Positions 13,923 through 51,412 of a stretch of 51,574 nt of DNA are shown piece after piece. The notes under the pieces are model-generated. The model was not told where the DNA came from. It did not search any database and was given only the letters and a program-made list of their open reading frames with translations. The stretch is from Dehalococcoidia bacterium (lineage in GTDB: Bacteria > Chloroflexota > Dehalococcoidia > UBA2979): the NCBI GenBank assembly GCA_029246995.1, contig JAQWMB010000007.1, forward strand, positions 1 to 51,574, given 5' to 3'. Each line of letters starts with the position of its first letter. Position 1 is the first letter of the stretch. The position numbers and the translations under genes are program-made.

Positions 13923-15503
13923 TTGAATGAACTGACTTTATACGACACAACCCTTAGAGATGGATTAGGAATGGAAGGTATTTCTCTTTCATTAAAAGAT
14001 AAGCTATCTATTGTAGAAAAACTTGATGCCCTAGGTATCCATTTTATTGAAGGGGGATTCCCTGGTTCAAATCCTAAAGATGCAGCATTTTTTCAGTCTG
14101 TAAAGAAATTAAAGTTAAAAAAATCAAAAATTGTAGCATTTGGCTCAACTAGAAAACCAAATTCTGATCCTAAAGAAGATGCATCTTTAAAAGCATTAAT
14201 AGATGCAGATACTACATTTATTACAATAGTTGGAAAATCATCATTGAGTCAAGTAACAGAAGTGCTACAAACAACTGATGAAGAAAATATAGCAATGATT
14301 AAAGAATCAGTAGATTACCTAACATCTAAAAAAAAGAAAGTTATTTTTGATGCTGAACATTTTTTTGATGGCTTTAAAGAGAATAAAGATTATACACTCA
14401 AAACCATTCAAGCTGCTTCGCAAGCAGGTGCTAGTACGTTGGTGCTCTGCGATACAAATGGTGGCACATTATCTAGTGAAATTCAAAAAATAACCAAAGA
14501 AGTTGTTGAAATGAATATTGGAGAAATTGGCATACATGTTCATAATGACACGGATATGGCTGTTGCAAATACTATTATAGCAGTGCAACAAGGTGCAACG
14601 CATATTCAGGCATGCCTGAATGGCTGGGGAGAACGAACTGGTAATGCTAATATCATATCTGTAATAGCTAATTTAAAACTGAAATTAGAGATTGATGTAA
14701 TCTCTGATCAACAGTTATCTGAATTAACAAAAGTTGCACATTTTGCTGATGAACTTGCAAATATTATACCTAATAATCGACAACCATATGTAGGGAAAAG
14801 TGCTTTTGCACATAAGGCTGGGTTACATGTAGCAGCTATAACAAAATCGTCAGGAACATATACGCATATTGAACCAGAATTAGTTGGAAATCAAGAAAGA
14901 ATTCTAGTTTCTGAATTTTCTGGTCGTAGAAATATTGAAGAGAAAATAAAAGAATTAGATATTAAGATTGATCTAGAAAATGAAGAAACTTCAAAAATAC
15001 TTAAGAATATAAAAAATTTAGAAGCTAAAGGTCTTCAGTATGAAGCTGCAAGTGCATCATTTGAGCTTGTAGTCAGAAAAATTAAAGATAATTATCGATC
15101 TCCATTCATAGTTGAAGATTTTTTAGTTGTAGAAAGAAAACAAATTACTGAAAACAAAGATTCAAATGAAATTATTTCAGATGCAATGGTTAAGGTTAGA
15201 GTAGGAGAAGAGGTATACCAATCTGCTGCAAATGGTAGTGGACCTGTAGATGCTCTTGATTCTGCATTAAAAAGTGCACTAGTAAATTTCTATCCTAATT
15301 TAAATATAATACATCTAATAGATTACAAAGTAAGAATTTTCAATCCAGCTCAAGGTACAGCTGCAGGCGTAAGGGTATTTATTGAGTCTTCAGATTCAAA
15401 ACAATCATGGAGTACAGTAGGCGCATCAACAGATGTTATAGAAGCATCATTTGTGGCATTACAAGACTCATATGAATATTGGTTAATTCATAATAAGATG
15501 TAA
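13923..15503 (+). CDS. cimA: Citramalate synthase (CimA family)
   Basis: LTLYDTTLRDGLGMEGISLSLKDKLSIVEKLDALGIHFIEGGFPGSNPKDAAFF is CimA-type; DGSG/LeuA-dimer C-terminus; TTG start. Confidence 0.9.
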   Translation: MNELTLYDTTLRDGLGMEGISLSLKDKLSIVEKLDALGIHFIEGGFPGSNPKDAAFFQSVKKLKLKKSKIVAFGSTRKPNSDPKEDASLKALIDADTTFITIVGKSSLSQVTEVLQTTDEENIAMIKESVDYLTSKKKKVIFDAEHFFDGFKENKDYTLKTIQAASQAGASTLVLCDTNGGTLSSEIQKITKEVVEMNIGEIGIHVHNDTDMAVANTIIAVQQGATHIQACLNGWGERTGNANIISVIANLKLKLEIDVISDQQLSELTKVAHFADELANIIPNNRQPYVGKSAFAHKAGLHVAAITKSSGTYTHIEPELVGNQERILVSEFSGRRNIEEKIKELDIKIDLENEETSKILKNIKNLEAKGLQYEAASASFELVVRKIKDNYRSPFIVEDFLVVERKQITENKDSNEIISDAMVKVRVGEEVYQSAANGSGPVDALDSALKSALVNFYPNLNIIHLIDYKVRIFNPAQGTAAGVRVFIESSDSKQSWSTVGASTDVIEASFVALQDSYEYWLIHNKM

Positions 15504-15565: not shown

Positions 15566-15778
15566 TTATAATCTTAGCTTACCATGAGATGGTTGACGTC
15601 GACGAAGCTTACCAAAAGCAAGTTCTTCTTCCTTTTTAATATCTTCAGGATCAGCGACTTCATTCTCATGAACATATCCACATTGTACACAAGTAGAAAA
15701 CTCGCCAAAAGTATCATCTTCAGCAAGCATAAAACCAGTACACCTTGGACATAGTTTGGGTGGTAAAGTATAAACCAT
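15566..15778 (-). CDS. Small zinc-ribbon protein (~70 aa)
   Basis: ATG at 15778 gives MVYTLPPKLCPRCTGFMLAEDDTFGEFSTCVQCGYVHENE... with CPRC/CVQC and SD GGAGG upstream. The track's longer start (15826) lies inside the riboswitch. Confidence 0.75.
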   Translation of the reverse strand: MVYTLPPKLCPRCTGFMLAEDDTFGEFSTCVQCGYVHENEVADPEDIKKEEELAFGKLRRRQPSHGKLRL

Positions 15779-15935
15779 TACAGACCTCCATAAACCCGGC
15801 ACCCCACCGGCATTCGGTCTGTTCAATTGCCTACGAAGTTAGCTGACGGATTCGGATGGAACAGTCACCCGCTCAAAAGAGTTCACCCCAAAATGGTTCC
15901 TCCGCTTTTTTAATATGTAGTCGCAAAAAAATTAG
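15779..15935 (-). ncRNA. c-di-AMP riboswitch (ydaO-yuaA type) leader
   Basis: Minus strand GCGGAGGAACCATTTTGGGGTGAACTC...GCGGGTGACTGTTCCATCCGAATCCGTCAGCTAACTTCGTAGGC...GAACAG matches ydaO hallmarks (GGGGTGAA; CCGAAtCCGTCAGCTAACcTCGTAGGC). Confidence 0.85.
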
Positions 15936-15940
15936 GCAAG

Positions 15941-15969
15941 ATATAAACTGACTACATTGCTACTGACAA
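15941..15969 (-). promoter_or_regulatory. Candidate promoter for the riboswitch leader (TTGTCA-17-TTATAT)
   Basis: Minus strand -35 TTGTCA (15969-15964), 17-nt spacer, -10 TTATAT (15946-15941). Confidence 0.45.
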
Positions 15970-16065: not shown

Positions 16066-17658
16066 ATGAAAAATAAATTAAAAACAGTTCATATTTTGTT
16101 TCTATTAGTCTTTCTTATAATGGCTTCTTGCAAAGCTATAGGTACTGCAATACCTGATAAAAAAATTAATACGGAAGACGCGATAAAAGAAAAAATCCAG
16201 AGAGAAAAAATACCAATAGGCAAGCCAATCATTCCTTCTAAAAACTTCACAAAAAATATACAAAATAATGAGAACTTAGCAATGAACCAGTCAATTCTTG
16301 AAAAATCATTAAGCATAGTCCTTGTTAAAGTTACATTAATTGATGAAAATAATAAATTAATTGTAAGAGAAGGCAATGGTGTAATTGTAAATCAGAAAGA
16401 ATTAATAATAACTGTCAGCAAAAGTCTGATTAATCTTTCTGAAATCAATGAAAAATATCAATTAGAGTCAATTGAAGTTAGTCTTTTTTATAGTAAAAGT
16501 AACGAAAATAACTTAATATACAATGCCAAAATTGTTATAGAGGACCAATTCAGTACCACATTTATAAAAATTGACGAAAAAGATCCAAATAAGATAAAAC
16601 AATTTATTGATTCGACAACTGAAACAATCTTCAACTCTTTTATTACAACTAATATTAATCAAACATTGCAAGTAATTAATATAGAAAAAACAGTTAATGA
16701 AAAACAAGAATATCTTAATTTTACAACAGTTCAAATTACAGGTAAGCATAGTAGTGAGCGCAAAAAATACACAGAGTGGCTTACAATCAATACTGAATTG
16801 CCTAATTCATTTTTTGGTTCACCTGCCTATAACCTAAAAGGCGAAATGATCGGAATTATAGACTTAATTGAGTATAGTGAAAATATTCCAATGACTTTTA
16901 TTACGACATTTTATTTATCTGATGAAGATATTGAAAATATATCATCAAGTGATAAAAATATATCTACAATTCTAAATATGCAATTTAAAAATGCTAAAGA
17001 TGATCTAGGCAATAAAAAAATAATTTCAAACCCTGTTTTCTCAATAAGTTCAATAAAGGAAAATGGAGTATTAAATTTGTATGATTACAACTTCAAATTT
17101 GATAAAAAAATATATGAATTATATTACTCATATGGAACTCAAGGTATCAAAGCTAATGATCTTATAAGAGAAGAATGGTATTTAAATAATGTATTACAAG
17201 AAAATCTTTCTTCCAAATATAAATGGCAAAATCAAAATGCCTTCTTTACTGATGTCATCAAATTCCCTTTCCCATTAGGAATGCCAGCTGGATTATGGAA
17301 AACAACAATTTTCTTAAATGATATTAAAATGGCAGAAAGCAAATTATACATTGAAACAAATTTACCAAAAAAGGAATTTTCTGAATTTCAAATTATAAAA
17401 AAATCACCAGATACATACATACTATCTTTCGACTATTCTAATATTATTTATGATGGAATTTTATCTTTTATAATTTATCAAGATGATCAAATTTACCATC
17501 AATCAAAAAACTTCCCTTTTATTAAAAAAGGTGATGGTAATTTAAAAATCTTGTATCATAATAATGATGTGGATAATGATCTGGATAATATAGAAGTGGA
17601 CTTTTTTATAAACTATGATTTCATAGGTAATACAAAGAGCGGAGAAAAGAATGAATAA
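16066..17658 (+). CDS. Lipoprotein with possible degenerate trypsin-like domain
   Basis: Lipobox-like LIMASC; REGNGVIVNQKELIITVSKSL and SFFGSPAYNLKGEMIGIID resemble the strands around the catalytic His and Ser of trypsin-like proteases. Confidence 0.45.
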   Translation: MKNKLKTVHILFLLVFLIMASCKAIGTAIPDKKINTEDAIKEKIQREKIPIGKPIIPSKNFTKNIQNNENLAMNQSILEKSLSIVLVKVTLIDENNKLIVREGNGVIVNQKELIITVSKSLINLSEINEKYQLESIEVSLFYSKSNENNLIYNAKIVIEDQFSTTFIKIDEKDPNKIKQFIDSTTETIFNSFITTNINQTLQVINIEKTVNEKQEYLNFTTVQITGKHSSERKKYTEWLTINTELPNSFFGSPAYNLKGEMIGIIDLIEYSENIPMTFITTFYLSDEDIENISSSDKNISTILNMQFKNAKDDLGNKKIISNPVFSISSIKENGVLNLYDYNFKFDKKIYELYYSYGTQGIKANDLIREEWYLNNVLQENLSSKYKWQNQNAFFTDVIKFPFPLGMPAGLWKTTIFLNDIKMAESKLYIETNLPKKEFSEFQIIKKSPDTYILSFDYSNIIYDGILSFIIYQDDQIYHQSKNFPFIKKGDGNLKILYHNNDVDNDLDNIEVDFFINYDFIGNTKSGEKNE

Positions 17659-27225: not shown

Positions 27226-27302
27226 TGGGGTGGGTGGAGGGGATTGAACCCTCGATCTCCAGGGCCACAACCTAGCGACTTAACCACTCGTCCACACCCA
27301 CC
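27226..27302 (-). tRNA. tRNA-His(GTG)
   Basis: Minus strand G(-1) GTGGGTG TG GACGAGTGGTTAAGTC G CTAGG-TTGTGGC-CCTGG AGATC GAGGG-TTCAATC-CCCTC CACCCAC C CCA. Cloverleaf folds by hand; anticodon GTG; G-1:C73 pair; encoded CCA. Confidence 0.93.
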
Positions 27303-49933: not shown

Positions 49934-51163
49934 TTAACCTAATTTATTAAATTCAGCCATAAATTCTTCAGCATTTGGAGGAATCATAATTGGTGGATTC
50001 ATCTCATCCTTTACTGCTTCTATCGTTTTCAAGCCTGCACCAGTAATAAAAAGAACCGTCTCCTCGTCTGTATTAATAACACCAGATGCAACTAATTTTT
50101 TTAAACAAGCTACAGATACTCCTCCAGCCGTTTCTGCAAAAATACCTTCTGATTCAGCAAGTAACTTGATTCCATCTACAATTTCTTCATCAGATGCCAT
50201 TTCTGCAGCACCATTAGTTTCTTCCATAACTTTTAAAGCATAATAACCATCCGCAGGATTACCAATTGCTAACGATCTAGCTATAGTTTTTGGTTTTTGT
50301 GGAATAAAATTGACACTACCATTTTTAAAAGCAGTAGAAATTGGCGAACATCCTGATGCTTGAGCCCCACTCATTCTAGTATTTAAATCTTTTATTAATC
50401 CAATATTTCTAATTTCATTAAAACCCTTCCAGATCTTAGTAAATAAAGAACCAGATGCCATAGGAACAACACAATGATCAGGTGCCCTCCATCCCAATTG
50501 TTCTGCTACTTCGAATGCTAAAGTTCGAGAGCCTTCAGCGTAATACGGCCTCATATTAATGTTTACAAAAGCCCAATCATTTGATGCAGCCAATTCAGTA
50601 CAAACTCGATTAACGTCGTCATAATTACCATCAATCATTGTCAAAATTGGATTATAAATTGAACTACCAATCACTTTACCAGATTCCAGATCATCAGGCA
50701 TAAAAACTAACGCACGCATATTTGCTTTAGCAGCATGAGCAGAAACAGAGTTGGCTAGATTGCCTGTAGAGGCACACGCGAGATCTTGATAACCAAATTG
50801 CCTTGCACGTGCTATAGCCATACTAACAACACGATCCTTAAAAGACCAAGTAGGATTAGCAGTATCATTTTTAATCCATAAATTTTTCATGCCAAGATGT
50901 TCTGCTAATTTCTTTGATTTGATTAATGGAGTAAAACCAGCCCCTATATCTACTTTATATTCAGGATCGCAGGGCAACAATGAAGCATATCGCCATAAAG
51001 ATTCTGGCCCATTTTCAATAGATTTTTTTGAAGTATTTAATTTAATTTGCTTATAATCATAGTCAACTTCTAAAGGTCCGAAGCAAAACTCACAAGAATA
51101 TATAGCCAAAAGTTCAAACTTTCTACCGCACTCTCGACATTTCAATGCAACTTCATATGACAT
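49934..51163 (-). CDS. thrC: Threonine synthase-like PLP enzyme with N-terminal zinc ribbon
   Basis: CRECGRKF...CEFCFGPLEVDYD; GAGFTPLIKSKKLAEHLGMKNLWIKNDTANPTWSFKDRVVSMAIARA; ACASTGNLANSVSAHAAKA. Confidence 0.88.
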   Translation of the reverse strand: MSYEVALKCRECGRKFELLAIYSCEFCFGPLEVDYDYKQIKLNTSKKSIENGPESLWRYASLLPCDPEYKVDIGAGFTPLIKSKKLAEHLGMKNLWIKNDTANPTWSFKDRVVSMAIARARQFGYQDLACASTGNLANSVSAHAAKANMRALVFMPDDLESGKVIGSSIYNPILTMIDGNYDDVNRVCTELAASNDWAFVNINMRPYYAEGSRTLAFEVAEQLGWRAPDHCVVPMASGSLFTKIWKGFNEIRNIGLIKDLNTRMSGAQASGCSPISTAFKNGSVNFIPQKPKTIARSLAIGNPADGYYALKVMEETNGAAEMASDEEIVDGIKLLAESEGIFAETAGGVSVACLKKLVASGVINTDEETVLFITGAGLKTIEAVKDEMNPPIMIPPNAEEFMAEFNKLG

Positions 51164-51229
51164 AACTATCCAATCAAAGAATTAGAACGAATCATCAAAT
51201 ACAAAGAACAATTTTGTGAAGTATTTTGC

Positions 51230-51332
51230 TCATCGTTCCGTATAATACTCGGTCGGCTGTAGCACCTTCGCTATAAAATAACTATGGTTGCCGTGGTTTC
51301 TAAGGTCCGATTCCCTCCACCACTCTAGATGA
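51230..51332 (-). ncRNA. SAM-I (S-box) riboswitch
   Basis: Minus strand TCATC-TAGAGTGGTGGAGGGAATCGGACCTTAGAAACCACGGCAACCATAG...GCGAAGGTGCTACAGCC...CCG..CGG-AAC-GATGA. Carries S-box hallmarks (GGTGGAGGGA, AAACCacGGCAACC, AAGGTGCTA); P1 TCATC/GATGA and P4 CCG/CGG identifiable. Confidence 0.9.
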
Positions 51333-51412
51333 TGTACTAATTTATAAGAATTAAAGTACATTATTGAGATTACAACCATATAAAAGAAATGGTCAAGTCC
51401 ACGACAAAAAAA

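Follow-up and report, generated by a model that had tools for sequence, protein, structure and literature searches.

A canonical c-di-AMP riboswitch and its unusual target, a conserved and apparently undescribed zinc-ribbon gene of Dehalococcoidia

The window analysed here is a stretch of 51,574 nucleotides from a Dehalococcoidia draft genome. On its minus strand an aptamer of the ydaO/yuaA (c-di-AMP) class lies 33 nt upstream of a gene for a 70-aa zinc-ribbon protein (Table 1). The next gene downstream, cimA-like, is convergent and the gene upstream, lipoprotein-like, is divergent, so there is no further minus-strand gene nearby after the riboswitch. The zinc-ribbon gene is the sole positional target, as the initial annotation had proposed.

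Table 1. Features of the riboswitch locus, in window positions
Feature	Position	Strand	Basis and remarks
cimA-like gene, convergent neighbour, not a target	13923..15503	+	window gene calls
70-aa zinc-ribbon gene, CPRC-x16-CxxC, near-invariant basic C-terminus GKLRRRQPSHGKLRL	15566..15778	-	ORF (MVYTLPPKLCPRC...GKLRL; ATG 15778-15776, stop ends at 15566), profile matches, alignment
GGUCUGU, 3' strand of predicted SD-occluding helix	15780..15786	-	fold; covers 3' end of GGAGG
Shine-Dalgarno (SD) GGAGG	15785..15789	-	sequence; 6 nt before ATG
c-di-AMP (ydaO/yuaA, RF00379) riboswitch aptamer	15812..15948	-	cmscan, 72.8 bits, full length; sole site in genome
ACAGACC, predicted anti-SD strand	15816..15822	-	pairs with GGUCUGU; overlaps pseudoknot strand by 4 nt; identical in congener G002
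GAACAG, pseudoknot 3' strand, in tail after P1	15819..15824	-	fold and loop complementarity
P1 helix 3' strand GGCAA	15827..15831	-	fold and Rfam alignment; covariation
Hairpin loop CUGUUC, pseudoknot 5' strand	15859..15864	-	complementary to GAACAG in tail
P1 helix 5' strand UUGCC	15935..15939	-	fold and Rfam alignment; covaries in orthologue alignment A4
Lipoprotein-like gene, upstream, divergent	16066..17658	+	window gene calls

The identity of the aptamer has been corroborated. Infernal (cmscan) matches it to RF00379 well above the gathering score of 38 (E = 4.5e-15), over model positions 1-134 of 134 and with 0 non-standard pairs flagged. The extent first given for the locus was otherwise correct, but its right edge at 15935 leaves out the greater part of P1's 5' strand; the aptamer match runs on to 15948. 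A scan of the whole draft genome (G000; 1.19 Mb in 31 contigs, 89% complete) found this RF00379 site only. No sigma-70 promoter cleared the scan immediately upstream of the aptamer, and the sole terminator-like site detected at the locus falls inside the coding region.

The crystallised ydaO RNA has a loop, CUCCUUCG, that is complementary to its tail, CGAAGGAG (sequence from PMC5393176), and this pseudoknot has a counterpart in the window, with the loop CUGUUC and the tail GAACAG. In the congener G002 the helix is 9 bp long, and a loop/tail complement is present, with varied sequence, in most relatives. However, over the whole set the mean length of 6.52 only slightly exceeds the 6.14 of tail-permuted controls (permutation maximum 6.43). 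Support for the pseudoknot therefore comes mainly from its position and from the crystallised RNA. Covariation supports the helices: among 28 orthologous leaders, compensatory changes occur at 14 of the 27 predicted pairs, and the two core segments hardly vary at all. As a riboswitch it is an ordinary, canonical member of the ydaO class. It shares the full-length aptamer, the cores GGGGUGAA and CCGAAUCCGUCAGCUAAC, P1 and the pseudoknot with the riboswitches of kimA (ydaO) in Bacillus subtilis and nlpC in Corynebacterium glutamicum. What differs is the target, which is neither a transporter nor a peptidase or Rpf gene.

A source of ligand is encoded as well. The draft genome has one DAC protein, of the CdaA type (E = 2.9e-42), whose gene stands in the order argF-cdaA-cdaR with a YbbR-like cdaR. 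The search for a cyclase, which had been recommended as a check, thus succeeded, and a cyclase is present in 14/14 genomes tested.

Would homologues of the small protein in related genomes lack the riboswitch? This outcome had been named as one that would refute the association. It was not found. Among 45 genomes of the order, 40 have a full orthologue, and in all 40 an RF00379 aptamer lies directly upstream on the same strand. The remaining five are four genomes with neither a full orthologue nor an aptamer and one (G016) with aptamers and no complete orthologue. Wherever a genome of the order has exactly one RF00379 match (n = 15), the match precedes the zinc-ribbon gene (15/15). Named records among the relatives are Chloroflexi/Dehalococcoidia metagenome assemblies. 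In a sample of 295 genomes from the class, the protein occurs in 111, RF00379 in 127 and both in 110, although this overlap (110/111) is confounded by descent. Direct inspection of class loci found the aptamer before the gene in 54/60. The six without it are L204, L220, L225, L221 and L224 (both of family f17) and L235, a second gene copy; the genome concerned in this last case (G645) has two copies, L203 and L235, one with a riboswitch and one without. A phylum-wide sample gave no strong match to the protein outside the class. Nor did gene-neighbour analysis of the zinc-ribbon loci find a conserved operon partner, which makes the zinc-ribbon gene itself the constant element.

One family of the class, f17, has lost the riboswitch. 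The protein is kept, and the aptamer is absent in 16/16 loci (in 14 of them also at a relaxed threshold). Riboswitch control is therefore not indispensable. At most f17 loci the place where the aptamer would be is occupied by a conserved TTGACA promoter element and, after it, a CRP/Rex-like palindrome, TGTG-N8-CACA (L224, L228-L231, L236, L238-L244 and L249; also L225 of f23). Similar TCACAA blocks occur near the promoter at one f23 locus and in some riboswitch-bearing members of the order.

Most known targets of c-di-AMP riboswitches are transporters, osmolyte systems or enzymes of the cell wall. From the class, about 114 further RF00379 sites were retrieved, and the next gene there encodes a GT20 trehalose-phosphate synthase (12 sites), a membrane glycosyltransferase-2-like protein (11), a radical SAM protein that we take to be KamA-like, that is lysine-2,3-aminomutase-like, from its sequence and a radical-SAM match (10), a VTT/DedA-like membrane protein (9) or an MFS-like transporter (7). 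The sites before GT20 trehalose-6-phosphate synthase genes include L049, L061, L137, L154, L267, L278 and L283. Trehalose-phosphate synthase and lysine-2,3-aminomutase-like targets fit osmolyte synthesis, and for the latter N-acetyl-beta-lysine would fit as the osmolyte. A search of the window genome for the trehalose-phosphate synthase that is under riboswitch control in relatives gave no homologue, but this is weak evidence of absence in a draft that is 89% complete.

Tiny Cys4 proteins unlike that of the window recur behind other sites. There is an EAM-L-EED...CxxC...CxxC type (7 loci), an RRCPEC...YCPGC...PEWR type (4 loci) and a CPRCDQPL...CGGCG type (2-3 loci), in addition to single cases at L143 and L146. 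Unrelated proteins of this kind stand directly behind riboswitches at L132, L134, L140, L141, L143, L146, L147, L148 and L152, and further such loci are L155, L156, L268, L304, L305, L311, L312 and L319. Small proteins with two CxxC pairs follow 15/114 riboswitch sites and 14/936 random positions (odds ratio 10, Fisher p = 3e-8). However, the p value is indicative only, because one of the 15 cases (L279) resembles a spurious frame, the sites are not independent of phylogeny and the random comparison set does not consist of gene starts.

The protein of the window (MVYTLPPKLCPRCTGFMLAEDDTFGEFSTCVQCGYVHENEVADPEDIKKEEELAFGKLRRRQPSHGKLRL) had been described as a zinc ribbon of about 70 aa, and the ORF does encode 70 residues with a Cys4 ribbon. 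All 82 distinct family members have 16 residues between the CxxC pairs and satisfy the TFIIB-type criterion of paired CxxC motifs at ribbon spacing. All 82 likewise end in RQRRRQPSHGKLRL or a variant of it differing by one to two residues. This conserved C-terminal peptide is basic, near-identical and 14 residues long; the linker between it and the ribbon is variable, acidic and modelled as a helix (residues 44-58). The closest profile is PF08271 (TFIIB zinc ribbon; E = 1.6e-5), but its 24.8 bits fall short of the Pfam gathering cut-off of 29; PF02150 (TFIIS/Rpb9-type zinc ribbon; E = 0.0026) is also below its curated cut-off. By its sequence, then, the protein looks like a TFIIB-type zinc ribbon without being filed as a member of PF08271. 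It has the CPxC-x16-CxxCG ribbon in common with TFIIB, TFIIS and Rpb9, but it stands alone, ends in a basic peptide specific to the family and has none of the other transcription-factor domains found in those proteins.

The AlphaFold2 model of the protein is of moderate confidence (mean pLDDT 70.7). Its best fold match is ZifS (TTHA0897) of Thermus thermophilus (PDB 8yoz; probability 1.00, E = 0.013), likewise a stand-alone small zinc-finger protein. Identity is 28% over 56 columns, with a TM-score of only 0.43 and an rmsd of 5.0. Eukaryotic RNA polymerase subunits with zinc ribbons come next. No match of the fold search, ZifS and these subunits included, fell below E = 0.001. ZifS was not recovered by a sequence search with the zinc-ribbon protein, and no paper on it was found in the literature searched. 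No Pfam, NCBIfam, PHROG, PDB-sequence, viral-contig or plasmid match gives the protein a name, and as far as could be checked the family is undescribed. No paper was found that joins a c-di-AMP riboswitch with a zinc ribbon, or c-di-AMP with Dehalococcoidia, although the target tables of Nelson et al. (2013) were outside the search. The riboswitch is standard; the target is unusual, deeply conserved and apparently undescribed.

These observations suggest the following explanation. A canonical ydaO-class riboswitch in the mRNA leader would control one small gene, whose product would consist of an N-terminal TFIIB/TFIIS-like zinc ribbon, a short helix and a nearly invariant basic C-terminal peptide. 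Binding of c-di-AMP would change synthesis of this protein, by class precedent lowering expression when c-di-AMP is high, although the direction in the window is open. What computation establishes is the aptamer and its pseudoknot, the cyclase, the arrangement of the genes and the conservation of the pair in the order and most of the class; ligand binding and the response of expression have not been shown and are inferred. With that qualification, we put the probability that the riboswitch controls the zinc-ribbon gene at about 0.8. Given the promoter elements and palindromes described above, the gene seems to be tightly controlled in each lineage, which we take as pointing to a regulatory product.

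What might such a protein do? So nearly invariant a C-terminal peptide in so small a protein suggests one conserved partner. The protein may bind a conserved machine that contains nucleic acid, RNA polymerase or the ribosome, and so tune gene expression to the ionic and osmotic state of the cytoplasm. This part of the explanation is tentative, with somewhat less than an even chance of being right. There are no binding data, the choice of partner is inferred, and a zinc ribbon followed by a basic tail does no more than hint at RNA, DNA, ribosome or polymerase binding. The earlier idea of an uncharacterised effector of c-di-AMP or osmotic signalling holds as a regulatory statement, given a real aptamer, a sole target and conservation in the order and class. 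Its osmotic half is only circumstantial, depending on the osmolyte genes of relatives that share the riboswitch.

Perhaps the aptamer is genuine and the protein acts instead on the transport of ions or osmolytes, for instance as a small regulatory partner to a transporter or an osmolyte enzyme, and not on transcription or translation. The trehalose-phosphate synthase, KamA-like, DedA/VTT and MFS-like genes behind other riboswitch copies in the class would be in keeping with this, as would the link of c-di-AMP elsewhere to potassium and osmolyte balance (PMC9960051). However, no conserved neighbour ties the protein to any transporter, and its most conserved part is a basic peptide, which we infer to be more typical of nucleic-acid contact. 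A transport role is possible but unlikely.

A second doubt concerns the switch itself. In 28/60 class leaders the aptamer is separated from the start codon by an intrinsic terminator, and control in many relatives is therefore probably by transcription attenuation. A T5 run in the same interval is absent in 30 leaders of the order. In the window, ACAGACC and GGUCUGU are predicted to form a 7-bp helix (pair probability 0.80-0.87, folded without constraint), and neither strand has changed in the congener G002, where the intervening leader has diverged. With no terminator after the aptamer and this predicted SD-occluding hairpin, control is probably translational. There is a precedent in the c-di-AMP riboswitch of C. 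glutamicum nlpC, which is reported as most likely to act on translation (PMC9960051).

What if the riboswitch in the window's genus is an ON switch? The ligand would then stabilise the pseudoknot, ACAG would be withdrawn from the SD-occluding helix and the ribosome-binding site would open. The four-base overlap of GAACAG with ACAGACC is in favour of this, because with ACAG common to both the pseudoknot and the SD helix cannot both form fully, and both helices are retained in G002 despite its diverged leader. On the other hand, the members of this class described so far are regarded as OFF switches (PMC9960051). Strand overlap alone does not set the direction either, since the terminator stems of family f10 appear, by eye, to overlap the pseudoknot strand similarly. 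Moreover, an order-wide switch helix between the pseudoknot strand and a segment near the SD is not supported above permuted partners (permutation fraction 0.20). An ON switch is doubtful on this evidence. Nevertheless, the overlap of the pseudoknot strand with the SD-occluding strand leads us to leave the direction in the window open, despite the OFF precedent.

That the aptamer is now a mere relic, or has switched to another ligand, and stays with the gene by linkage only is very improbable: the organism does have a small genome with a single copy, and the identity of the ligand is without an assay, but the aptamer core is conserved over the class while the surrounding genes change, all genomes checked have a cyclase, and one-copy genomes of the order always keep their copy before the zinc-ribbon gene.

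Riboswitch control of the zinc-ribbon gene is thus the reading we prefer, and the protein is probably a principal output of c-di-AMP signalling in a large, mostly uncultured group of Chloroflexi-type bacteria. A wider proposal is that c-di-AMP in Dehalococcoidia acts largely through tiny zinc-ribbon proteins, that of the window being the core output that couples it to transcription or translation. We rate this at slightly under even odds. Both the family's standing as the most constant target in the order and the repeated presence of other tiny Cys4 proteins behind the same riboswitch point towards c-di-AMP effectors of a new kind, and they provide a brief list of candidate genes for testing in a group with few cultures. 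Elsewhere in the window, also on the minus strand, a SAM-I riboswitch (51227-51335; 62.5 bits) lies directly upstream of a threonine-synthase-like gene (49934-51163), and the only tRNA is a tRNA-His (GTG; 27226-27301).
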